Assembly (NCBI GenBank): GCA_001312405.1
Contig: BBDR01000002.1
Span: 186,001 to 250,000 of the forward strand
DNA from: Clostridium sp. NkU-1
GTDB taxonomy: Bacteria > Bacillota_A > Clostridia > Lachnospirales > Lachnospiraceae
Reading direction: 5' to 3'
DNA length: 64,000 nucleotides
Shown: positions 51,082 through 64,000 of the stretch, one piece after another
How the letters are laid out: the number at the start of each line of letters is the position of its first letter
Position numbering within the stretch: position 1 is the first letter of the stretch
Notes under the pieces: generated by a model
What the model saw: only the letters and a program-made list of their open reading frames with translations
The model's database searches: none
What the model was told of the DNA's origin: nothing
Translations under genes and position numbers: made by a program

Positions 51082-51803
51082 ATGATTGTGATTGAGATAG
51101 CTATTTGTGATGATGAGCTTTACTTGCTGAGAGAGTTGGAGGAATGCTTACTTGAACTTGGGAAGGATGCCGGAATTCAAGTAGAAGTGGAATGTTATGA
51201 AGATGGAGGTGATTTGGTTAATGCGGTAACCGGAGGAAAGCGGTATGATATAATCTATCTGGATGTGCGGATGAAATATATGGATGGTCTGGAAGCGGCG
51301 TATAAAATACGAGAAATTGACCGTATGGTTCAGATGGTGTATGTAACATCCCATGATGGTTATATGAAAGAAACCTTCCGGGCAGCTCCAATTGGATTTC
51401 TTACAAAGCCTATAAAAAAAGAAAGAATTTGAAGAAACTTTTTATCGTGTTTTAAGAATTGTGCAAGAACAGGATTCGTATTATCGTTTCCGGTATATGA
51501 AGTCGGATTATAAAGTGGCAATACGTGATATTCTGTATTTTGAAAGCAAGCTTCGAGTGGCGGAAATTGTTTTGCAGAATGGCCGCTTAAAAGAATATAA
51601 AGCCTTGAATAAGATAGAAAAAAAGTCTGGATCAAGGCAAGGGGAGATTTTTACGGATACATAAGTCTTATCTGGTAAATTACCAGCATGTTATCCGAAT
51701 GGGGTATGAAGAGGTTGAAATGCCGAATGGAATCATTTTACCGTTAAGCAGGGCGTATAAAAAAACGGTGGATGATAAATTGAGGCAGTTCAAAAAGAGG
51801 TGA
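51082..51803 (+). CDS. LytTR-family response regulator (AgrA-like, frameshifted)
   Basis: 239 residues when corrected. Receiver domain: IAICDDELYLLRELEE, phosphorylated Asp in DIIYLDVRMKYMDGLEAA, YVTSHDGYMKETFRA, conserved Lys in FLTKPIKK. C-terminal LytTR DNA-binding domain: YFESKLRVAEIVLQNG, FLRIHKSYLVNYQHVIRMG, MPNGIILPLSRAYKK. Extra A in the runs 51414-51420 and 51618-51624 break the frame. The sensor kinase gene follows three bases later. Regulators of this type control peptide-quorum and bacteriocin-type loci. Confidence 0.88.
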
Positions 51804-51806
51804 AAA

Positions 51807-53108
51807 ATGAATACAGTTAAAATGATGTTTACAAGTTTAAGCTTGTCGTTGTTTTCTACACTTTTACTGAAAGTGTATCTGGATATTTTTCTTGTAAAGA
51901 AGAGCCGATATGTGCGGCTGGTCGGCTGGTCTCTTTTTTTCCTTTGGCAGTTTGGCATTAATACGAAAGTGGTATTTTTTTCATCCGGTAATAAACCTGA
52001 TGATATCATTAACGACAATTTTGATAGTTGGTATTATTTCTTATGAAGGGATATTGTGGAAGCGGTGTATATTCCCCATTACATTCGTAATGATGTGGAT
52101 GCTTTTGGAGGGAATGGGAGAAGCTGGCTATGTGTTTCTGAATAATGGGCAAAGTCCGCCATTTATCCTTAATTCTATTTTTGCAAAATTTTTACTGTTT
52201 TTAGCAGTAATGGGAATCCGCTGGTTCATGAACCGCCATGGAGGCGGAAGGATGCCCTATAGCGGAGGTGCCTATTTAACCTTATTTCTTCTATCAGGAC
52301 TGGTCCTGTATCCTGTATTTTACATGTTAGTAGAAACATCGGATAGAAAAGGAACGGATGCCTTTGGCTGGCTGCTGATGGCAGGATTGATATTAACAAT
52401 TATGAATCTATCCATCTATCCAATTTATTTAAGATTAGTTGAAACGATTCAGGTGAAGAAAAATGCCCATATGTATGTAAAGCAATTGGAATACTATGGA
52501 AGGCAGCATGATTTGGAGAAAGCAGCATCGGCAGAAATACAGGAAATGAAGCACGATATGAAACAGCGCCTGATCTATTTGCAAGAGCTTGTGAAATCCG
52601 GCCAAAAAGAAAACTATTAACAACTTTAGAAAATTTGATAGGTAAATCAGGGAGCATTGGGCGATTGGAGTCAAAAACCGGAAGTTTGATTATCGATGCT
52701 ATGGTGAACCATGTATGGGAAAAAACCTGTAAAAAGGGGATTCTTTTGCATACAAAGCTTCAAGTGCCTCGGGTTATGAACATAAAAGATGAAGATTTGG
52801 GGGTATTGCTGGGAAATGCTTTCGATAATGCGGTAGAGGCCTCTGAATATGTAGAAAAGGGTAAGGGAGAAATCTGGATAGAGATAACCCATGAAAAAGG
52901 TTATTTGTATATCTTTGTCAGAAACCGCTATCAGGGGAAAATAGAGCATATTAAGGGACACAGACTGGTAAGCCGGAAAGAAGAGGCTTTTCATGGCTGG
53001 GGGATATATTCGATGGAGAAGATCGCAAAAAAATATCATGGGCATATGGAACTGAATTGGGAGGAAGATATATTTTCACTGGAAACCATATTATATGATG
53101 ATATATAG
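51807..53108 (+). CDS. GHKL-type sensor histidine kinase (AgrC-like, frameshifted)
   Basis: About 433 residues. The N-terminal half is polytopic (five to six membrane segments including TILIVGIISYEGILW, FLLFLAVMGIRWFM and LTLFLLSGLVLYPVFYML). It is followed by a coiled-coil dimerisation region with the likely phospho-His in EMKHDMKQRLIYL and a GHKL ATPase with N-box LLGNAFDNAVEAS and WGIYSMEKIAKKYHG. Breaks: T7 at 51975-51981 (should be T6) and a missing T near 52609. This is the architecture of peptide-sensing AgrC-type kinases. Confidence 0.85.
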
Positions 53109-53643: not shown

Positions 53644-55665
53644 ATGAAAAGATTAAAGGCAGTTTCATTTTTATTAAGTTTTCTTGTTTTTATTTCTGCC
53701 TCGTTTTGTGCGTCCGGGGAGGAAATAGCAAGTGGGAAAAACGGTCTGGATGTCATGTTTGTCATGGACTATAGCGGTTCCATGTCTGCCAATGATCCGG
53801 ATCACACTGCCATCGGTATGGTAAAAGCGTTTATTGATACCGTGCACAGTGCTGATATCCGGATCGGTTTTGTGGCATATAATGACCAAATTGTGTCATC
53901 TGCTGCTCCGGTATCTGTGAGGACTCAGGAAGAAAGGGACTCATTAAAAGCCCTGATGGATTCCGCCGGGTATTCGGGCAATACGGACATTGGTTTAGGA
54001 TTAAATTATGCATATGGCCTGACCGGACAGGAAAACGGAAGAAAGTGCATGATTGTTTTAATATCGGATGGAGAAACGGATTTAAAAGGTTCCCAGGCCG
54101 GAAGGACCAGAGAAATCTCTGATCAGGACTTGAGAAATACGGTAGAGGCCAGCCGGTCCCGGAATATACCGCTTTATACGGTGGCTTTCGGCAAATATGA
54201 CGGCAGCAAGGAGATCCTGAAGGAAATTTCCAGCCAGACAGGCGGACAAAATTATACGGTTGAAAAACCGGAGACTTTAATTGATGTGTTGTATGGGATT
54301 TTTCATGACAACATGGCTTACCGCATTCAGGAAATTGCGGGCGGCATTTATGGGGAAGGCAGTCAGAGTCTGCGCATTAAGCTTGATGATTCCCATTTAG
54401 ATGAGATGGATGTCCTGATGATATCGCCTCAGCAAATTGGAGATACTACGGTTGTTTACGGAGAGCAGCAGATAAAACCGGTTAATCTGGTTCACTATTC
54501 TGTGGCAAAGGTATCGGACATAAAAAGAGATATCAGCGAAATGACCATACAGACCAACACAAGAAAGAATCAGGAACTAAAGATTTATTTGATCAGCTAC
54601 AGGGACTTGACTCCTGTTATGGAAATAGAAACAACGGTTGCGAGAAACAATCCATTGTCTTATAAGATTTATTTTAAGGATAAAAGCGGTTCTGTAATTA
54701 AAGACGAAGCCTTTTATTCCAACTTCACTCCAAAGGTGGTGGTTTATCCGGACGGACAGTCGGACAGCAGCAGAAGAGATATTGAAACTGCCGTCAAGGA
54801 AGGGATTCTTGCAGGAGAAATGGTTTTCCCCCAGTCAGGGACTTATTACATAGAAGCCCGTTTGGATGACAGGATGGAGTCCTGCATCTTTAATACAGCA
54901 AGAATTCAGGTGATTAACACGCCTCCTGCAGGAGAGCTTCCAAAGAACGTTCATTATAATCCTTTAACCAGGGAAAAACAGCTGGTACTTAACGATTATT
55001 TTACCGATTCGGATGGAGACAGTATTCTTTACACTTTGGAACAGGAGGCCGGTGATCTGGCAGAGGTCGGTCTTAATAATGGAATCCTTACTATTAAACC
55101 ATTAAAAGCAGGAAGCCGGAATCTGATACTGAAGATATCCGATGGAGAGGCAGCAATATCCTATACCTATTCCTTAGAGATAATCCCATTGTGGAAGGCA
55201 TATTGGTGGGTTATTGTTCTCATTCTGGCAGCCGCAGGTGCTGGCCTTTGGAGACTGTTCCATAAACCAAAGCCTGAACTGGAAGTGATTACGGAAAAGA
55301 AAGCCCAGAACCGATTCCAGGGAAAGATGGATGCCTATTTTATGGAGCAGCCTGAGGGAGAAGCTGAGATCCCGCCCCTTACATTCCCTATGTATAAGAT
55401 CAAGGATAACAGAGTAAGCCTTGGAGACTTAATGAAAGAATATCCGGATGCTTCTGCATCTCTGGGACTGGACCACATATTTCTCATAGCGGATGAGGAC
55501 AGGCGGATGATTTTATATCATTCATCGGAGTCTTCCCTTATGATCGGAAATTCCATTGTGTGCAGAAAGATACAGTATAGCGTAAGCTTTGGTGATATCA
55601 TATCCATTACATCTCCGGATGGAGCTTATGATCTGGAGGTCCACTATATTTCTATGATTCAATAA
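53644..55665 (+). CDS. Membrane-anchored von Willebrand factor A protein
   Basis: 673 residues, intact. Signal peptide (residues 1-25, ending FCASG), extracellular vWA domain (about 34-215) with an intact MIDAS motif VMDYSGSMSAND, GNTDIGLGLNYA and IVLISDGETD, then beta-rich domains (about 220-510, cadherin-like near LNDYFTDSDGDSILYTL), one membrane span (WWVIVLILAAAGAGLW, about 521-537) and a cytoplasmic tail of about 130 residues ending in a beta-rich FHA-like segment. First gene of the contractile-type cluster. It may sense or scaffold at the cell surface. RBS AAAGGTGTG. Confidence 0.85.
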   Translation: MKRLKAVSFLLSFLVFISASFCASGEEIASGKNGLDVMFVMDYSGSMSANDPDHTAIGMVKAFIDTVHSADIRIGFVAYNDQIVSSAAPVSVRTQEERDSLKALMDSAGYSGNTDIGLGLNYAYGLTGQENGRKCMIVLISDGETDLKGSQAGRTREISDQDLRNTVEASRSRNIPLYTVAFGKYDGSKEILKEISSQTGGQNYTVEKPETLIDVLYGIFHDNMAYRIQEIAGGIYGEGSQSLRIKLDDSHLDEMDVLMISPQQIGDTTVVYGEQQIKPVNLVHYSVAKVSDIKRDISEMTIQTNTRKNQELKIYLISYRDLTPVMEIETTVARNNPLSYKIYFKDKSGSVIKDEAFYSNFTPKVVVYPDGQSDSSRRDIETAVKEGILAGEMVFPQSGTYYIEARLDDRMESCIFNTARIQVINTPPAGELPKNVHYNPLTREKQLVLNDYFTDSDGDSILYTLEQEAGDLAEVGLNNGILTIKPLKAGSRNLILKISDGEAAISYTYSLEIIPLWKAYWWVIVLILAAAGAGLWRLFHKPKPELEVITEKKAQNRFQGKMDAYFMEQPEGEAEIPPLTFPMYKIKDNRVSLGDLMKEYPDASASLGLDHIFLIADEDRRMILYHSSESSLMIGNSIVCRKIQYSVSFGDIISITSPDGAYDLEVHYISMIQ

Positions 55666-55771
55666 ATGAGGCTGAGACAGCCTGAAATAAGAACTGTGAT
55701 GTTCACGTTTTCCGTTGGCGGCAGCTGATGGAAACGATTGAATAAAAGTGAGAAAGAGGGAGCAAAAGCGT

Positions 55772-57940
55772 ATGGAAACTATTACACAAACCAACCGGAC
55801 TATTCTGTTTTCCGAAATGAATCCTGAAAAGCTGAATCTTCTGACCCTGATTGGGGATGTAAGAGGGAAGACAAGCCTTGATGATGACAAGATTAAGGAA
55901 ATTAATGAAACGCTTCTGGTAGAAAGTTTTGAGGATTTTTTGGAAAAGTTTGCCCCAGTTGTTTATTCATGGTGCGATGCGAATACCGGCAGTATTCAGT
56001 ACAGTCTGATTAAACCGGAGAATATACCGGATAACTGCATTACAGAAATACCGCTTAATGAAATGAATGATTTACTCAATATGCTCATTACATTGCAGGA
56101 TGCAAGAGGCTCTTTGGGAGTTGCAAATGTAGATTTTAAATTCAGCAATGTTTTAGAGATGATCTCCCCTAAAAAGATTATGGAGGATATCCGTCAGGTG
56201 CGGAGAGAGATCCAGTATACTTATGGGAACTACATGGAGTTAGATGAGGAAGATCCCAAGCGTCTTGATTTGGGGGACAAGCTGAATTACCAGTTCGAAC
56301 AGGCAAGCCACAATTACAATAATGTGCTGGCTATGCTCCCTCTTGCGATTGAAGATATCAAGACCCGCCTGCTTCTTGGAAATGGGGAAACTGCACAAAG
56401 AGGCCAGGAATTTAAGGCTGGGCTTTTAAGCATGGGAGATGACGGAGAACTGAAAATCCTGGAAATGAAGCAGGAGGAAGGAACCCAGCTTGCGATCGTG
56501 GATGACCACATCAATACCAGTTTGATTCAGACATTCCGGGATGATTACGATGCCCTTAATGAGGACAAGTCTGACTATGTCAGAGAGCTGGTGGTCAGGA
56601 CTTTCTGCCCCCTTTCTTCCACCATGGAAAGCTCTGTAGACCGGGAGGTAGAAGTACAAAATTACAATACCTATCTTGAATTTTATAAAAAGAGCAAGGA
56701 TGATTTTATAAAAGCGGTAAAACCATTGATTGAGAAAATCCTGGGTGTAAAGGCGTTCTTTGATCAGTACCAGGTAAAAGAAAAGGGGATGCAGCCAAGG
56801 CTTCTGATCACCAACACTCCTTTGGAAATGATGATAAAATCCAGCAATCTGCCAAGACTTTTAACTTATTTAAATACGACAAATGATAAGAATGAATTTG
56901 AGAATACACTTTGGTTTGGAATTGTTCCGGATGTAGAACTAAATCAGTCAGGAGATGGCAAGCTTCAGAGAATGCGGTTTGCCGGAAACCAGAAGGTAAA
57001 GAAACCGGGAACCAATACCATGGAAAACCTTGCTATTTTGATGAATGCCATTAACCCCTATAAGATTACAACATTTTTCAGCTTCGCTACCGGAGAAGAG
57101 AGTACGTTTAATTATGTAGCCACTGAGGGAATTGGTATTTTTAAGGACAAATGTACTCCTCTCATGAAGAGGGATTACAGTGAATTCGTAGTTCCCTGCA
57201 TCCCCAATGTTACCATCATTCCAAAGGATAAGTCAGGACTTATCCTGGATAAGCGGATGGTCATTGATGACGATGGAAATGTGACTCTTTCCCAGGAAAA
57301 AGAGGACATTATGAAGATGTGGATCGAGGGAGTATATGTGGGAGCTGCATACGGGGCTGCCGGTATTGCTGCAGCATGGCAGTGCCCGGAATACCTAAAG
57401 CAGAGGTTTCCTAATACCACCATGGAATACCCTGGAGTGCGTTATGACATAGAAGCAGGAGACAATGCTCTTTTAGTCACGACCAGCATGACAAAGGAGA
57501 TATCCGGATTTACCAATGCCATTAAAAATTCCATTAACAACACAGGCTTTGGATTTGTTTTCACCTCGGACAATGCTCAGCATAAGGGCAGGGAAATTAA
57601 GAATGTCATGGTCTACAAAGCCAGAAATTTATTAAGCAATGGGACGGAATTTGAACCCATTTATAAAACCCTTCTGGTTACTTATATTGAAAGAATGCTC
57701 AGATTTTACAGCGGAGACTTTAAACAGGATAAGATTTTACAGTTTTTCAGCAATAACCCCAGCAGCCAGAAGAGCAAATGGGATGCAAACCGCCAGTATG
57801 TTAATTCCCTGCTCCAGGATGGAGATGAGCTGGATTTCAGCATCGATGAGAAAAACGGCATCTGCAACATACAGCTGACCTTCAGCAACACAACCAGAAA
57901 TCTTAAGGTAGAACTGACAAGAAAAGGACAGACTGCGTAA
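55772..57940 (+). CDS. Large sheath-like protein of a putative contractile system (TssC-like)
   Basis: 722 residues from ATG 55772 (RBS AGAGGGAG), intact, soluble, acidic. I recognise no exact family. The C-terminal part suggests a contractile sheath protein: LWFGIVPDVEL, ILMNAINPYKITTFFSFATG, FVVPCIPNVTIIPKD, VYVGAAYGAAGIAAAWQCPE and YIERMLRFYSGDF. The N-terminal part (FEDFLEKFAPVV, LNMLITLQDARGSLG) loosely recalls TssB, and total length is near TssB plus TssC. The two tube-like genes downstream support this reading. Alternatives are an unrelated large cytoplasmic scaffold or a filament protein. Confidence 0.5.
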   Translation: METITQTNRTILFSEMNPEKLNLLTLIGDVRGKTSLDDDKIKEINETLLVESFEDFLEKFAPVVYSWCDANTGSIQYSLIKPENIPDNCITEIPLNEMNDLLNMLITLQDARGSLGVANVDFKFSNVLEMISPKKIMEDIRQVRREIQYTYGNYMELDEEDPKRLDLGDKLNYQFEQASHNYNNVLAMLPLAIEDIKTRLLLGNGETAQRGQEFKAGLLSMGDDGELKILEMKQEEGTQLAIVDDHINTSLIQTFRDDYDALNEDKSDYVRELVVRTFCPLSSTMESSVDREVEVQNYNTYLEFYKKSKDDFIKAVKPLIEKILGVKAFFDQYQVKEKGMQPRLLITNTPLEMMIKSSNLPRLLTYLNTTNDKNEFENTLWFGIVPDVELNQSGDGKLQRMRFAGNQKVKKPGTNTMENLAILMNAINPYKITTFFSFATGEESTFNYVATEGIGIFKDKCTPLMKRDYSEFVVPCIPNVTIIPKDKSGLILDKRMVIDDDGNVTLSQEKEDIMKMWIEGVYVGAAYGAAGIAAAWQCPEYLKQRFPNTTMEYPGVRYDIEAGDNALLVTTSMTKEISGFTNAIKNSINNTGFGFVFTSDNAQHKGREIKNVMVYKARNLLSNGTEFEPIYKTLLVTYIERMLRFYSGDFKQDKILQFFSNNPSSQKSKWDANRQYVNSLLQDGDELDFSIDEKNGICNIQLTFSNTTRNLKVELTRKGQTA

Positions 57941-58128
57941 ATAATACCAGGTATTGTCCACACACAATTATATGGAAGGTGGAAACAGCCATGTATGGAA
58001 ACGTCAGCACAATTGTGGCGATTATATTAAAATAAAAGCTTTATTATTAAACACCAGGCATCCGAAGGCCGGTAATAAAACGGCTTTATGGATTATAAAA
58101 ATTATTTAATAAGAATGGAGGACGTAAT
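57941..58128. other. Intergenic spacer between sheath-like and tube-like genes
   Basis: No convincing gene; a 14-codon frame from 57991 (MYGNVSTIVAII) has no good site. No strong terminator. ATGGAGGACG precedes the next start. Confidence 0.4.
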
Positions 58129-58556
58129 ATGGGACTTAGAATGAAAATCACAGGCAGCGAAACCGTAGAGCTGCGTGAGACAAGCATTACCAGTGTAGTA
58201 TTTGGAGCAGACATTCCCCATGATTCCAATGCCAGATCAACCGATCTTGGTTCAACCGTGTTAATTGAGGGGAAGATACTGGCGGCAGTAGGCGGTGAGG
58301 CCGCTGATGATACCAGCAAGCTGGCCAGATGGTCTTTAGTTCCGGCAGAAAATTCAGACTGCTACCGGAATGTTCAGATCGACGTGGTAAGTGCCTCCCA
58401 GGTGGTTCGTCAGATAACGGTACCCAATGCATTTGTGTTGATTACAGAGAAGATTTTACTGATGAAACAGGAACCGGAGTATTCAAGCTTCTCATTAAGC
58501 AGAAGAAGGACAAGATGACTTCCCTTAAATTTGAAGGCGGATTCAGCGGAGAATAA
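58129..58556 (+). CDS. Hcp/tail-tube-like protein 1 (frameshifted)
   Basis: 142 residues when corrected; one G is missing near 58437 (PNAFV-VDYREDF). Compact all-beta protein. It shares with its neighbour DSNARSTDLGSTV, the GKIL..V pattern, WSLVPAE.SDCYR, ASQVVR, PNAFVVDY and IKQKKDKM. The order of strands with a terminal 'NAFV..Y ... e.v/f.l.ik.kkdk' hairpin resembles Hcp and phage tail-tube proteins. Located just after the sheath-like gene, as tube genes are. Function inferred, not proven. Confidence 0.6.
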
Positions 58557-58589
58557 TCAGGAAGAATAAAAGAAAGGAAGGAACAGATT

Positions 58590-59015
58590 ATGGGATTTAC
58601 ATTAAAAGTAGAAGGCCCGTCTACCATTGACTTAGGGACCATCAGTATTACAGGAGTAAAGTTTAAGACAGATATTCCCCTTGATTCCAACGCACGTTCC
58701 ACCGATCTGGGGAGCACTGTGGAAATTTCAGGAAAGATTTTAACTGCAGTAGATGGAGATCCTTTTGATTCTACAAGACAGTTGGGACTCTGGTCCTTAG
58801 TACCCGCAGAAAAGTCTGACTGTTACCGTAAGGTGACCGTTGAGGTGATTGCAGCTTCTCAGGTAGTGAGAAAATATACATATCCCAATGCATTTGTAGT
58901 GGATTATAAAGAAAACTACGGAGATACGGAAGGTGTAGGAACATTCCGGCTCATCATCAAACAGAAAAAGGACAAGATGGCGCAGATCGCTGTGGAAGGC
59001 GGATACAGCGTGTAA
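58590..59015 (+). CDS. Hcp/tail-tube-like protein 2
   Basis: 141 residues, intact, a tandem paralog of the previous gene (roughly half the positions identical by eye): ISITGVKFKTDIPLDSNARS, LGLWSLVPAEKSDCYRKV, YPNAFVVDYKENYGD, FRLIIKQKKDKMAQIAVEGG. RBS AGGAAGGAAC. A strong terminator follows seven bases after its stop, so these two proteins are probably made in excess of the genes downstream, as expected for tube subunits. Confidence 0.65.
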   Translation: MGFTLKVEGPSTIDLGTISITGVKFKTDIPLDSNARSTDLGSTVEISGKILTAVDGDPFDSTRQLGLWSLVPAEKSDCYRKVTVEVIAASQVVRKYTYPNAFVVDYKENYGDTEGVGTFRLIIKQKKDKMAQIAVEGGYSV

Positions 59016-59021
59016 ACATGC

Positions 59022-59050
59022 AGGGGCTGCCGAAATGGCAGCCCCCTTTT
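59022..59050 (+). terminator. Strong intra-cluster terminator after the tube-like genes
   Basis: GGGGCTGCC pairs with GGCAGCCCC around CGAAAT, followed by CCTTTTG. It lies 17 bases before the next start codon with no promoter seen between, so downstream genes depend on readthrough. Confidence 0.75.
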
Positions 59051-59066
59051 GATAAGGAAAGAAAAG

Positions 59067-59549
59067 ATGCTTGATTACTATAAAATCCTTGGGGTCCCTC
59101 CTCAGGCAACAGAAAAAGATATTAAGGCCGCTTATCGAAAGCTGGCTAAGGAATATCATCCGGATGTGGTGCAGGATGACCCGGATGGAAATAAAAAGAT
59201 GTATGAGATCCAGGAAGCCTATGGGGTTCTGGGTGATGCAGAGAAAAGGAAACAATATGATTCTTTCCGAAAAGAGAAAAAGGAAAGAGGAACGGCTAAA
59301 AGGGAAGACTCCCGGGAACAAAGAGAGAAACCGGGAAATGCAGCTCCGGATATGAGCCAGTTTGAACGCTTCTTTGGATTTCAGCCGGGAAAAGGGATGG
59401 AGACATACCGTGGGAACGGGGACGGGGCGAAGAAACATGATGGGCCAGTCAATACCAATGAGCTGTTTTCAGCATTTTTTGGGGTGAAAAAAATGAGGAG
59501 GAAGCCGGTAGATTTAGAACTTGTGAAAAAAATTGTCAGGAGCAGATGA
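59067..59549 (+). CDS. J-domain (DnaJ-like) protein
   Basis: 160 residues. N-terminal J domain (1-65): [20 protein letters not shown] with the HPD motif in [11 protein letters not shown] and [12 protein letters not shown]. The rest is charged and disordered-looking, with [10 protein letters not shown] and [12 protein letters not shown]. The natural end is uncertain: two A7 runs lie in the last 40 bases and reading the first as A6 would end the protein at FFGVKK. No zinc-finger or client domain, so probably a dedicated Hsp70 recruiter for this cluster. Confidence 0.85.
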
Positions 59550-59794
59550 TTCTATCAGAACAACAACCCCGGTTTGATTTAACCGGAAATAGGATGGTGC
59601 TGGAATAGAAATCTTTTATTTTACTGCAATTCATTCCATGCCGGATCAAAATCAGGTAAACTAGATCATTTTATTCTGTTTAGATAATAAAACAGTTATC
59701 TTTGATCTTAATATGAGAGAAGAAAGTTATGCATTTTGGAAAAACAGTATTGCTGCTATGACTGAAACGATACGAAAGGCTGAAGGGGTATTTA
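59550..59794. other. Gap with a possible small reading frame
   Basis: Mostly non-coding. From 59712 an ATG frame of 30 codons (MREESYAFWKNSIAAMTETI) ends at 59804, overlapping the next start, which hints at translational coupling; it may also be the 3' end of a broken gene. Family unknown. Confidence 0.3.
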
Positions 59795-60211
59795 ATGAGA
59801 AATAAGTTAAAAAAAGGCTGTGTCTGGATATTGCTATGGCGACAATTTTTGTATTTGCAACAGTTTTTTTTAAGCTCATGTAAGAATTTGGATAGAGAAA
59901 CCAACCGGAATCAGAACCCGGCAATGCAAGAAGTGCTGGAATCGATTGCCGATGAGAATGGCGGGGGTGAACCGGCAATGAGACATTCGACGGGTGAGGT
60001 ATCATTTGAGATTTACTTGGGCTGGAGTAAAATTGAGGATTCAGAATGCTTTTTAGATAGAGAGAGGACCAAAGTTTATGGCTTGAATGCCAGTTCTCCG
60101 CTTGGTTCTTTTACACCAGAGGAGTGTTTTTCCTTTTTGGTTGAACATTATCAGGATACGGATTCTTTTAAGTTGTTGGATCAAAGCGATTCCCTTACGC
60201 AATGGTATTGA
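59795..60211 (+). CDS. Small lipoprotein-like protein of the cluster
   Basis: About 138 residues as written. The N terminus ends in a lipobox-like LSSC (residue about 29). The hydrophobic stretch is better (DIAMATIFVFATVF) if the A7 run at 59809-59815 is lengthened by one and the T8 run at 59874-59881 shortened by one, a compensating pair. The mature part has EVSFEIYLGWSKIEDSECFL and FTPEECFSFLVEHYQD. After the TGA at 60209-60211 the same frame stays coding-like (FRAMLEIQEIIERTRYEKM) to TAA 60308, overlapping the next gene, so the stop may be an error. Outer face of the membrane; function unknown. Confidence 0.5.
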   Translation: MRNKLKKGCVWILLWRQFLYLQQFFLSSCKNLDRETNRNQNPAMQEVLESIADENGGGEPAMRHSTGEVSFEIYLGWSKIEDSECFLDRERTKVYGLNASSPLGSFTPEECFSFLVEHYQDTDSFKLLDQSDSLTQWY

Positions 60212-60288
60212 TTTCGTGCGATGCTTGAAATACAGGAGATCATTGAGAGAACCAGATATGAGAAAATGAGGAGGAAACCAGGTAAAGC

Positions 60289-60842
60289 ATGGAGAGCAGA
60301 AGAAAGATAAAAATAGGATTGGATATCTCCATCCTGATTTGTGCAATACTTTTAATTTTTGGCCTTTTTTCCAAGGGAAATGACCGGTTATGGATCGGGG
60401 TGCTGGTCTTTGCAGGACTGGCGGCGGCCGCTGACCTGCTGGGCCAGATAAGGGAAAAAGGGGTCAGGCCAAAGGAGAATTCAGTTGGATACTCGGAAGA
60501 GGTCAGGGCTACTCAGCTCATGCTTTTGGACGAGCATGATAAACCCTTAAAATCTTGGGATATAGCAGAAAAAAAACAGCTCTTATTATAGGGAAGAAAA
60601 ACGAAGAGGAGGATGTGGATGTGGATTTGGAGGACTGCGAGTACAGTGCCTTCATTGACAACCAGCATGCAGTACTGAATTACTGCCTGGATTCCTGGTA
60701 TTTGGAAGATTTAGGTTCACAAAACGGTGTAAGAATCAGGAAGGCAGAGGATGGCATCTGTTATCAGGTGACTGGAAGGCCATGCAGAATTTTGGCGGGA
60801 GATGTGATTTATATTGCCAGCACTCGCCTTTTATTGACATAA
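60289..60842 (+). CDS. Membrane-anchored FHA-domain protein (frameshifted)
   Basis: 184 residues when corrected. Two N-terminal membrane segments (LDISILICAILLIFGLF, LWIGVLVFAGLAAAADLL), then a cytoplasmic FHA domain: FIDNQHAVLNY, WYLEDLGSQNGVRI, ILAGDVIYIASTRLLL. The S/N-x-x-H and SQNG motifs are those that bind phosphothreonine. The A8 run at 60569-60576 needs one more A (or two fewer) to join AEKK to TALIIGKKNEEE. RBS GAGGAAACC. Confidence 0.82.
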
Positions 60843-60865
60843 ATACATAGATAGGAGATTGAAAT

Positions 60866-61363
60866 ATGAGCTTAGTAAGATGCCCCAATGGACACGTTTT
60901 TAATGCAAGACGTTATGGAAAGACCTGCCCCTATTGCCAGATGAAGTTAAAAGAAGAGACAGAGGATAAGAAACCTGTGGGATTTGAGCCTTCTATGGAA
61001 GTTTTACAGGAAGAGGTCCGGCCCGTCTGTGGCTGGATCGTGTGTATCTCCGGCGCAAGGGTTGGAATGGATTATAAGATACACAGCGGAAAGAACTTTG
61101 TGGGCCGTGGAGATGATATGGATATACAGATCTTGGGAGATAACGAGATCAACCGGAAAAACCATACCATCATTGTCTATGATGAGAAAAAGAGGAATAC
61201 GGTCATCCTGCCGGGAGATGCAGCAGGGCTTGCTTATTTGAATGATGAAGCTGTTTATGTGCCAACGGAATTAAAGCCTTACGATGTGATTGAGCTGGGG
61301 AAAAGCCGGTTTTTATTTGCCCCATTATGCGGAGAAAATTTTGAATGGAATGATAAAAAATGA
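60866..61363 (+). CDS. FHA-domain protein with N-terminal zinc ribbon
   Basis: 165 residues, intact. Zinc ribbon: CPNGHVFNARRYGKTCPYC (residues 6-24). FHA-like domain: KNFVGRGDDMDIQILGD, EINRKNHTIIVYDEKK, YDVIELGKSRFLFAP. Cytoplasmic. It overlaps the next gene by four bases. RBS TAGGAGATTG. Such proteins read phosphothreonine marks; the phosphatase genes follow directly. Confidence 0.82.
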   Translation: MSLVRCPNGHVFNARRYGKTCPYCQMKLKEETEDKKPVGFEPSMEVLQEEVRPVCGWIVCISGARVGMDYKIHSGKNFVGRGDDMDIQILGDNEINRKNHTIIVYDEKKRNTVILPGDAAGLAYLNDEAVYVPTELKPYDVIELGKSRFLFAPLCGENFEWNDKK

Positions 61364-62226
61364 CTGTGATGATCATGGGAGGTCTAGGGATCATGCTGTC
61401 GGCCTCTGTGTTAGGCCGGCTGGTTCTGGCGGCCTCAGATATAAGGAAAGAAGAAAATAAAAAAAGAGAACCTTCAGATGAAACTGCCGTCAGCCAGACC
61501 ACTGGCGGCAAAGAAATTCAGGCGGATATAGCGGGAATCCAAACAAATAACGCAGGGACCCTGGCAATTTTGTCCGATGGGATTGGAAAAGCGAACACAG
61601 GAAAAGTGTGTGCCCAGATTGCAGTGGATACTTTACTGGATCGATACCAGCCCTGCCATGTGCTGAATAACCCTGAATATTTCTTTAAGACTTCTTTTCG
61701 TGAAGCAAGTCAGAGGATTCAGAGGACCATTGGGGAACGGCGGGGAGGTACATGCCTGGCAGCGGTATTTGTCAATGGAGGGTCTATGCATTACGGTCTG
61801 GCGGGAGATATCCGGATTGCTTTGTTTCGGAATCAGGAATTGATCCCCATCAGCAAAGGCCAGACTCTTAATGTGCTTGCCTTAAACGCTTATCAGGAAG
61901 GAATCTTATCAAAGCCTGAAACCATCTGGACCATGGAAGAAAAACGGGTATGGAACTATCTGGGAATAGACGGTTTTCATGAAATTGAGATTGGAGAAAG
62001 GCCTATCCGGTTAAAACCCGGTGATGTGGTGGTGCTTGCGACAAAGGGAATCTTTGAAACGGTATCCTGGGCGGAGATGGAAGATATCCTGTTAAAGGAC
62101 CTTACTTTGAAGGAGAAAGCAGACGGCATTGTCATGGAGTCGGAAAAGAAAAATGGGATGGAGAAAGAAAACGGGAGCGTTCTGCTTCTGAGAGCGGAGG
62201 TGACTTATGAGAAGAATGAATTCTGA
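61360..62226 (+). CDS. Membrane-anchored PP2C-like protein 1
   Basis: 288 residues, intact. N-terminal membrane anchor (MIMGGLGIMLSASVLGRLVL), then a PP2C fold: LAILSDGIGKANTGKVCAQI (first metal-binding motif, DGIG), GGTCLAAVFVNGGSMHYGLA, GDIRIALFRNQEL and KPGDVVVLATKGIFETV. The usual late GG-x-DN motif is replaced by ENGSVLLL, so activity is uncertain. Overlaps both neighbours, so tightly coupled. Confidence 0.75.
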   Translation: MTVMIMGGLGIMLSASVLGRLVLAASDIRKEENKKREPSDETAVSQTTGGKEIQADIAGIQTNNAGTLAILSDGIGKANTGKVCAQIAVDTLLDRYQPCHVLNNPEYFFKTSFREASQRIQRTIGERRGGTCLAAVFVNGGSMHYGLAGDIRIALFRNQELIPISKGQTLNVLALNAYQEGILSKPETIWTMEEKRVWNYLGIDGFHEIEIGERPIRLKPGDVVVLATKGIFETVSWAEMEDILLKDLTLKEKADGIVMESEKKNGMEKENGSVLLLRAEVTYEKNEF

Positions 62227-64000
62227 TTTTCGGACACAGTATATCTCAGAAGAAGGGCAGAAGCTCACGAACCGGGATTATTTTGGATTTGTAGAAATGG
62301 ATGACTATGCCTGCTATGTGCTGGCGGACAGCCTGGATGGAGAACAGGAGACCAACAGCGCAAAATTTGTGGTGGAAAGCCTGATCCGAAGCTTTGTAGA
62401 AGGACCTTCCATGAATCCAGGGAAACTGAAGCACAGTATGAATCAGGCTCACAGGGAGCTCTTAAAACACAGGGGTGGAATGCACTTAAAGGCCTCTGTC
62501 ACCATGGTGGTCACGGATTATAGAAAGCTTCTCTGCTGCCATGTGGGAAACAGCAGGTTTTATCTGCTCCGGAACGGCAGGATCCTGGCCAGGACAAGGG
62601 ACCAGTCCCTGACTGAGAATCTGCTGAAAGAAGAAAGGATCACCCTGGATCAGGCGGCGGCCCATGAGGAAAGAAATAATCTTTATTCCTTTTTGGGAGA
62701 GCGGGGACAGCCGGAAATCCTTGTATCAAAAAAAGATCGGGCTGGAAGCCGGTGATATCTTCGCCCTTTTTACAAGAGGGGCTTGGGAGAACTTTGGCGA
62801 GGAAGAGTTTCTGGAAGCTGCAAAAGAAGCCAAGGAGCCTAAGGAGATTCTGGATCAGGCCGAGGATGTGATCTTAGGGCAGCAGGAGACCGGGGAGGTA
62901 GACAATTACAGCCTTGCGGTGACCTTTATTGAAAAGGTTTACCAGCCTCCGAAGAAGTTGTCCTTAAAAAAAATCTTAATGGCTGCCATACCCATTGTTT
63001 TGGGGGTGGGCGGGATCAGCCTTGGGCTTTATCTGCATCATAGAAGCATAAAAAAAACAAGGAATACAATTTGGAAAAACACTTAAACAGCGGCCAGGAA
63101 TATTTGAAATATGATAATTACCTGAAAGCTTCCGAGGATTATGGAGAGGCAAAGAAGCTGGCGGCTGGTTTAAAGAAAAAAAGGGAAGGGGAGGAGGCAG
63201 ACCAGTATAAAAAACTGGCGGAACAGATTCTTTTAGCGGATGAGGCAATGATGGGCGGAGAATATCAGAAGGCCCAAAACCTATACTTAAAGGCCAGGGA
63301 ACTGTCCATAAAAGCAGGAAATACGGGAAAAGGATATATTGATGCCGGGTTAAAGCAAACAAGAGATTATATTGATGTATTTGACCTGATTGAAATGGGA
63401 CAGCAAAAAGAGGGATACGGTGACATGGAAGGAGCCGTGAAAGCTTACGGCCAGGCGAGAGATAAGGCGGCAGCCTTTATTTTTCATCTGGAAAAGAGGA
63501 AGCATTGGCAAAGCAGGCGGCGGCCGAGGAAAAAATGGAAAAGGACAGTCAAAAGCAGGAAGCCGCAGAGGCGGCGGCCAAGGAAGAATCCCAGGCGGCT
63601 AAAAAGTCGGAAGAAGAATCGAAGCAGGCAGACGAAGAAAAGACGAAGAAAGAGGAAGAGGAAAAGCGGGAGCTGGAAAACCAGCAGAAGCTGAATGATC
63701 AGAAAAATGCCATTGATCTGGAAAATAAGGGAAATGAACTTCTGGCGGAGGAAAAGTATGAAAGCGCCATTACCTATTATCAGACGGCCAAAACGATCTA
63801 TATCCGTTTGGAGATGTACGAGCTGGCGGATGGGATCAACGATAAGATTGCGGCAGCAAAGGCCGGTATAAAGACAAGGGATCAGAAAACGTCCGAGTCA
63901 GGCAGCGGGACGGGAACCGGGAATGGAGATGCCGGAAAAAAACGGTCCGGGAGTGGGCCGTTAAGCTGCCGGAAACCATTTACGGGAAATACATGACAAA
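62207..64000 (+). CDS. PP2C-like protein 2 with membrane span and coiled-coil/TPR-like region (frameshifted, partial)
   Basis: At least 595 residues, running off the window. N-terminal PP2C fold (1-245): NRDYFGFVEMDDYACYVLAD, SVTMVVTDYRKLLCCHVGNS, FALFTRGAWENF, GEVDNYSLAVTF (late DN motif present, while the early DG motif reads ADSLDG). Membrane span ILMAAIPIVLGVGGISLGLY. Then helical repeats (YLKYDNYLKASEDYGEAKKL, GGEYQKAQNLYLKARELS), a Lys/Glu/Ala coiled coil and another repeat (EEKYESAITYYQTAKTIYI). Breaks: A7 at 62728-62734, A8 near 63050 (A9 expected), missing A near 63496, and the A7 run at 63936-63942. Joins cytoplasmic phosphatase-like sensing to an extracytoplasmic stalk. Confidence 0.72.

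Follow-up and report, generated by a model that had tools for sequence, protein, structure and literature searches.

A probable contractile injection system of an apparently undescribed class encoded in Clostridium sp. NkU-1 and its relatives

Introduction

The right end of a 64,000-nucleotide stretch of Clostridium sp. NkU-1 DNA (the window) carries, from position 53644, genes for vWA, sheath-like, Hcp-like, J-domain, FHA and PP2C-like proteins, and raises the question of whether these encode a contractile machine and, if so, of which class. A first-pass annotation had proposed an analogue of the type VI secretion system (T6SS) in a monoderm bacterium. T6SSs have been described for Gram-negative bacteria (PMC5349215), and Gram-positive contractile systems are known from Streptomyces. 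All of the open reading frames (ORFs) named in the first-pass annotation are present where it placed them, and the studied part of the window holds the 5' half of the cluster, which runs to the window edge. We conclude that the cluster is very probably a chromosomal contractile injection system (CIS) of an apparently undescribed class, kept by the cell, with toxin delivery between bacteria as its likely use. Its identity as a CIS is well supported by the sheath, tube, wedge, spike, tip and effectors, together with synteny and co-occurrence.

Results

Sheath and tube

The protein encoded at 55772..57940 (+) has 722 residues if counted from the ATG at 55772, and would be eight residues longer if translation began at the GTG at 55748. 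It had been thought sheath-like, and a search with its predicted structural model agrees, with the first 31 of 50 VIA rows being contractile tails, pyocins, CIS or T6SS. The 22 non-T6SS entries among these 31 align from model residues 1-9, and the nine T6SS entries only from residues 289-317. The model thus identifies a predicted single-chain contractile sheath rather than one half of the TssB/TssC pair that had been expected, and no separate TssB-like gene was seen in the clusters read. Searches with the sequence return no Pfam or NCBIfam match, weak and unnamed PHROGs matches only, and nothing meaningful in the PDB, whether by single sequence or by profile. Of 7995 proteins scored in a protein search, 2500 reached E<=0.001. 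Among the 120 matches listed, the best-scoring are 91-100% identical to the window protein, the named ones being mainly from Lacrimispora and Hungatella. Several of them carry the database name 'transcriptional regulator', probably a propagated misannotation, and this misnaming may be why the system was missed.

Two Hcp-like genes follow in tandem at 58129..58556 (+) and 58590..59015 (+), the second encoding 141 residues. Their reading as tube genes held up, in that Pfam TssD is matched at E<=10 by each of 23 aligned family members (the lowest E value is 1.6e-5; the window protein at 58590..59015 has 0.018 and does not reach the cut-off), and a profile of the family searched against the PDB up to E 10 has a sole match, Hcp1 (6bdc, E 0.089). 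By these profile matches they are predicted Hcp-type tube proteins. A relative of the sheath turned up at 64 loci in a single scan of genome contigs; two hcp genes accompany it at 44 of these loci and a single one at 17, and at three none was found.

Baseplate wedge, spike, tip and effectors

Baseplate, spike and ATPase genes had been expected to lie further right. Longer stretches analysed from five genomes (G001, G004, G005, G006 and G009) hold the first two; an ATPase is also present, and it is Hsp70-like, with no AAA+ gene recognised among the cluster proteins scanned. In G001, G004, G005 and G006 the Hsp70-like gene is followed by p429, p237, p265, p220 and two VgrG-like genes (the first VgrG-like protein is split in G006), and then by genes for a pentapeptide protein, p177, a PAAR-like protein with DUF4280, and an RHS giant ~2430 residues long. 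The G009 cluster is shorter and rearranged, with one VgrG, and no RHS giant was seen in its stretch. Inspection by eye of G006 shows a second p220-VgrG-VgrG-pentapeptide-p177-DUF4280-like run at 40.5-45.9 kb of the joined stretch, a candidate second effector island, and G001 has a stand-alone DUF4280 gene (L001:2723-3016) ~7 kb upstream of the sheath gene.

By sequence or model comparison p429 is a TssF/gp6-like baseplate wedge, and it also resembles a baseplate chain of a Streptomyces CIS. Profile searches of the PDB with p429, p237 and p265 gave nothing useful. Pfam matches to p429 are scattered and weak (Cag12 in 4 of 35 members, best 0.0065), and the one DUF4815 match among 13 members of p265 (E 0.032) is too weak for use. 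For the spike, Phage_GPD is above the cut-off in the two VgrGs of G004 (7.4e-10 and 1.5e-9) and below it in that of G009 (8.9e-5). The PAAR-like tip protein matches DUF4280 over the cut-off, at 4.3e-18 and 4e-21 in the G004 and G009 versions, and across 22 genomes with the sheath DUF4280 is matched in all 22 at E<=0.001 and in 21 over the cut-off. Pfam scans of the G004 and G009 versions further return RHS_repeat (1.6e-77), DUF6531 (8e-15) and DUF2345 (1.4e-10). At its N-terminus the G004 giant matches Phage_GPD at just 0.008, making its VgrG part a weak call.

The RHS giants of G001, G004, G005 and G006 are 43-67% identical over their N-terminal 450 residues and 46-65% over their RHS cores, and their tails of 166-189 residues share 18-29% identity over 42-145 aligned columns. 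Three tails were scanned, of which two are deaminase-like (MafB19 and YwqJ) and one matches no toxin family; of two scanned genes downstream of the giants, one is of the SUKH type (immunity) and the other has no match. Variable tails on similar RHS cores form the sequence pattern of polymorphic toxins acting between bacteria, a target that we infer from the pattern. Because the four tails differ on similar cores and are accompanied by deaminase domains and a SUKH-type immunity gene, toxin delivery between bacteria is the likely use of the system.

Conservation and distribution of the cluster

The 64 loci are mostly from Lachnospiraceae and other Clostridia, and include Streptobacillus notomytis (L049), Defluviitalea (L059) and Eubacterium plexicaudatum (L063). 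Genes were counted with iterated hidden Markov models (HMMs) in the 56 loci that have at least 9.5 kb beyond the sheath. Hcp, FHA1, FHA2 and the Hsp70-like protein are each encoded in all 56, the two PP2C-like proteins (PP2Ca and PP2Cb) in 55 each, and the J-domain protein in 41. The wedge p429 was found in 50, p237 in 47 and p265 in 42, and some of the misses of these three may reflect a locus end or broken frames; p429 and p237 were missed within the stretch of L049. Loci with every one of the ten core families include those of two cultured strains, [Clostridium] aerotolerans DSM 5434 (L002) and Lacrimispora algidixylanolytica SPL73 (L004). Among the 56 loci that have >2.5 kb of upstream sequence, 39 carry a vWA gene. 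The order sheath-hcp-(dnaJ)-FHA1-FHA2-PP2Ca-PP2Cb is kept in 55 of the 56 loci, the exception being L049, and there are two main arrangements beyond it, with the Hsp70-like gene either ahead of or behind p429-p237.

Nor is the system restricted to monoderm bacteria, as had been supposed. In the phylum of G001, 13 of the 398 genomes sampled have the sheath (11 by strong matches, with G258 and G390 divergent). So do 34 of the 98 sampled from the phylum to which G007 (Streptobacillus) belongs, the Fusobacteriota (32 full-length, G457 partial, G483 in fragments). The Fusobacteriota are diderm. In G258 (L111, L114 and L115), a genome of the same phylum group as G001, the downstream genes resemble by eye outer-membrane biogenesis genes, and the host may be a diderm Firmicute.

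The sheath co-occurs with other parts of the machine, in counts that score partial and fragment matches as present and with Fisher p values that ignore phylogeny. Sheath and DUF4280 occur together in 12 of the 398 genomes, with sheath only in one, DUF4280 only in seven and neither in 378; the sheath-only genome is G390, which has a sub-cut-off DUF4280 match in a separate search. The corresponding figures for the 98 genomes are 31, 3, 3 and 61. For sheath and wedge there are 12 of the 398 genomes with both, one with sheath only, one with wedge only and 384 with neither (G390 does have a wedge in its cluster, E 4e-7), and in the 98 genomes 25, 9, 2 and 62. Sheath and Hcp in the 98 genomes give 34 with both, none with sheath only, three with Hcp only and 61 with neither. 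In G476 and G487 the machine genes are scattered: sheath and p265 lie near a DUF4280 gene, the Hcp and wedge matches lie elsewhere in the genome, and neither Hcp nor FHA was matched near the sheath in the 34 and 20 kb read.

These data bear on whether the cluster is the decaying tail of a domesticated prophage that no longer serves any function, the window copy being a pseudogene cluster. The window does contain five apparent frame breaks relative to intact relatives, near 58,440 (Hcp-like protein 1), 60,590 (FHA1) and 62,725, 63,060 and 63,480 (PP2Cb), and the sheath is split in L063. Against this, a sheath ORF of at least 690 residues is present in 62 of the 64 loci (all except L063 and L064, which meets a contig end), in relatives down to ~35% identity and in conserved order, and no related sheath was found in phage, plasmid or viral-contig collections at the sensitivities used. 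Since four of the five breaks sit at runs of 5-8 equal bases, the sequence suggests sequencing or assembly indels rather than decay, and we regard the decayed-prophage explanation as extremely improbable. As a result of the five breaks the ORF map of the window understates the number of intact genes. Comparable splits are seen in the vWA, VgrG and PP2C genes of L030, which is titled a complete genome.

The first Hcp-like protein illustrates the effect, being 93% identical to the intact Hcp1 of L001 until residue 104, with the remainder in another frame. PP2Cb, at 62207..63996 (+) and reaching the window edge, is recovered by tblastn in pieces that match an intact 582-residue L001 protein.

Membrane proteins and signalling control

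The vWA, J-domain, second FHA and first PP2C-like assignments of the first-pass annotation were all confirmed by Pfam, and the first FHA protein by its intact relative in L001 (FHA E 4.7e-5). The vWA protein (53644..55665, +; VWA 1.5e-17) has an N-terminal signal or transmembrane (TM) segment and one TM segment near residue 530, and the L001 homologue suggests a topology with the vWA domain outside and the C-terminal part inside. FHA1 (60289..60842, +; its frame break lies at a homopolymer) has N-terminal TM helices, and FHA2 (60866..61363, +) matches Yop-YscD_cpl at 1.6e-7, just under its cut-off, and FHA at 2.6e-4, with zinc-ribbon-like cysteines seen by eye at its N-terminus. PP2Ca (61360..62226, +) matches PP2C_2 at 7.5e-7. 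PP2Cb has a PP2C domain, one TM segment and a coiled/TPR C-terminus, the TPR being found in the L001 copy; the window copy reaches only 0.032 in Pfam and 1e-17 with NCBIfam Stp1, which does not reach the cut-off of that model. Inspected by eye, the two PP2C-like proteins are without some of the canonical metal ligands.

Hydrophobic segments (Kyte-Doolittle mean >=1.8 over 19) are present in 60 of 60 FHA1, 56 of 56 PP2Cb and 38 of 39 vWA ORFs, and N-terminally in 46 of 60 PP2Ca ORFs. They are rare or lacking in FHA2 (0/61), the Hsp70-like protein (0/53), the wedge (0/52), p237 (1/46) and the sheath (1/62).

Control by threonine phosphorylation had been proposed by analogy with the T6SS, and a kinase gene was found in only part of the clusters. 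All four Fusobacteriota-group clusters tested encode a protein kinase beside the FHA and PP2C genes (L049:16291-16974, L107:14506-15324, L109:13168-13857 and L106:305-1141; Pkinase E 3e-39 to 2e-11). An HMM of these four kinases matched L049 alone, and no ORF in the 63 other loci or in the five long stretches.

The membrane proteins also bear on a reading as an eCIS-like (extracellular CIS) system or tailocin, in which the same parts would be assembled in the cytoplasm and released by lysis. The single-chain sheath fold is like that of phage, pyocin and eCIS sheaths, and the wedge is like a Streptomyces CIS baseplate chain. G258 and G390 likewise fit such a reading, having sheath-Hcp-VgrG-wedge-p237-Hsp70-p265 and no FHA, PP2C or vWA match (E<=0.01) in the 52 kb (G258) and 39 kb (G390) read; these two genomes count against our preferred interpretation and weaken the case for FHA and PP2C as parts of a minimal machine. 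Elsewhere the cluster itself encodes FHA1 (56/56 loci) and PP2Cb (55/56), all with hydrophobic segments. Nothing in the set of proteins scanned stood out as a tail fibre, tape measure or lysis protein, the only such matches being weak (a holin profile on the FHA1 TM region, E 0.04; an endolysin PHROG on Hcp1, E 0.23). An AAA+ ATPase and a LysM/gp53-like protein were not recognised in the part of the cluster genes that was scanned. Cell-bound T6SSs use VgrG-RHS effectors and FHA/PP2C control, which the present cluster resembles. We consider a released particle unlikely and favour a cell-kept system.

Hsp70-like ATPase and J-domain protein

The J-domain protein (59067..59549, +; DnaJ 5.7e-25) has by eye an HPD motif, presumably that of J domains. 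The 826-residue Hsp70-like protein has no meaningful Pfam match, and its profile matches BiP at E 8e-4; it retains DFGSSNT and DCGGGTTD, which we take to be the actin/Hsp70 signature. In addition to the 56 loci it is present in G258. In G390 its HMM picks out two proteins, and by eye a further two begin in an actin/Hsp70-like manner. Several Hsp70-family-like genes, one with a DnaK-like start, lie between p237 and p265 in G390 (L116 and L117).

The ClpV profile TIGR03345 has matches in 28 of 28 genomes, in none of them over its cut-off of 884.95 bits (the best score is 864.7); of 14 control genomes, one exceeds it. These sub-cut-off matches are probably ClpB/ClpC-type relatives. None lies inside the cluster in G001, G004, G005, G006, G009, G258, G390 or G470, in which the place of the cluster was read in one piece. 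A clpV count for F. nucleatum genomes, taken from another study, is mentioned in PMC12940168.

A divergent but true T6SS (TssA-M), with its remaining genes unrecognised, would account for Hcp/TssD, VgrG, the PAAR-like DUF4280 protein, the TssF-like wedge, FHA/PP2C and the kinase of the Fusobacteriota-group clusters, and ClpV-profile scores fall just under the cut-off in many genomes. It is at odds with the one sheath chain and with the searches for TssK (PF05936; 0/22 genomes over the cut-off, best E 0.28, one of the 22 being from the Streptobacillus phylum) and TssM (IcmF_C, PF06744; 0/22, best E 0.23). Each search had one of 14 controls over the cut-off, that for TssK being E. coli. TssE/gp25 (PF04965) is over the cut-off in one of ten genomes, on a different contig from the sheath record. 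A true T6SS of this kind seems very unlikely.

Neighbouring genes

The ORF at 59795-60211, which had been read as a TssJ-like lipoprotein, lies in extra DNA between the J-domain and FHA1 genes. It does not belong to the conserved cluster, a tblastn search of the loci compared finding nothing like it at E<=1e-3, and we do not retain this identity. Upstream of the vWA gene are a response regulator receiver (51082-51432, +; Response_reg 3.1e-14) and the C-terminal part of a GHKL histidine kinase (52635-53108, +; HATPase_c_5 3.4e-19), both shorter than in L001. These agr-type two-component regulators (51082..53108) are probably linked regulation and not a machine part. LytTR, a GHKL kinase or AgrB is found upstream in 23 of 32 vWA-containing Lachnospiraceae loci with enough upstream DNA, and in one of 11 without vWA.

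Discussion

In the working model a one-chain sheath surrounding an Hcp-type tube would assemble on a baseplate that FHA1, PP2Cb and vWA, the cluster's TM proteins, anchor to the cytoplasmic membrane. On contraction the tube would be pushed into a neighbouring cell together with spike and effector. FHA/PP2C phospho-signalling would gate firing, and in many Lachnospiraceae expression would be coupled to an agr-type quorum sensor. Membrane docking and firing into neighbours are moderately supported; that the Hsp70-like/J-domain pair serves the machine, by assembling or recycling the sheath, is weakly supported. A more elaborate version has a membrane-docked weapon of monoderm gut bacteria and diderm Fusobacteriota in which a dedicated Hsp70/J-domain pair replaces ClpV, an extracellular vWA protein senses the neighbour and agr switches on RHS injection. 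We hold it only tentatively and think it rather doubtful, the replacement of ClpV being made less probable by the ClpV-profile matches present in all 28 genomes, of which the best falls 20 bits below the cut-off.

Gram-positive gut commensals had previously only been suspected of having such a system, from orphan PAAR-like and VgrG-like genes (PMC5349215, PMC8651086). With this cluster, culturable strains offer a predicted sheath, tube and baseplate wedge, and the use of injection as a weapon by Lachnospiraceae and Fusobacteriota becomes open to direct test. The cluster further suggests that an Hsp70-type ATPase may belong to the core of such a machine. No description of this cluster was found in the titles and abstract openings listed from the openly licensed PMC literature, with preprints outside that search, and an account in a subscription journal or preprint is possible.

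Comparison with known systems

The cluster is like T6SS i-iii in its sheath, Hcp/TssD-type tube (matched by sequence), VgrG, PAAR-like tip, TssF-like wedge, RHS effectors and FHA/PP2C proteins, and, in the Fusobacteriota-group clusters only, its kinase. A DUF4280 PAAR-like tip is also found in Francisella IglG (PMC5014421). The cluster differs from T6SS i-iii in its one-chain sheath, in TssK and TssM being without a match over the cut-off, in having an Hsp70-like ATPase and J-domain protein within the cluster as well as a vWA protein, in the tandem hcp genes of 44 of the 64 loci, and in its mainly Lachnospiraceae hosts. As far as the parts tell, they suggest a T6SS-like working; we do not file the cluster as a T6SS because TssK and TssM have no match over the cut-off, no TssB was seen, and the sheath is a single chain.

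Extracellular and cytoplasmic CIS (PVC, AFP and the Streptomyces CIS) share the single-chain sheath fold and gp6-like wedge. The cluster differs from these by its membrane proteins and phospho-control genes, and no tail-fibre, tape-measure or lysis gene was recognised among the proteins scanned. From a prophage tail it is set apart by the lack of relatives in the phage genomes searched.

The closest antecedent is the 'unknown phage-like translocation system' of Gram-positive bacteria (PMC5349215, PMC8651086). Lays et al. (2016) suggested that Gram-positive bacteria with DUF4280 proteins possibly have a phage-like translocation system (PMC5349215). A 2021 PAAR survey reported that Phage_GPD genes in Firmicutes neighbour chiefly a single DUF4280 subtype and that no eCIS or T6SS genes are conserved in their surroundings, and it speculated about an unknown system (PMC8651086). 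What is shared is the adjacency, in Firmicutes, of PAAR-like DUF4280 genes and Phage_GPD/VgrG genes, which in the relatives studied here lie downstream. In the text consulted, neither a sheath nor a tube or baseplate is named for that system, and the present cluster supplies them.

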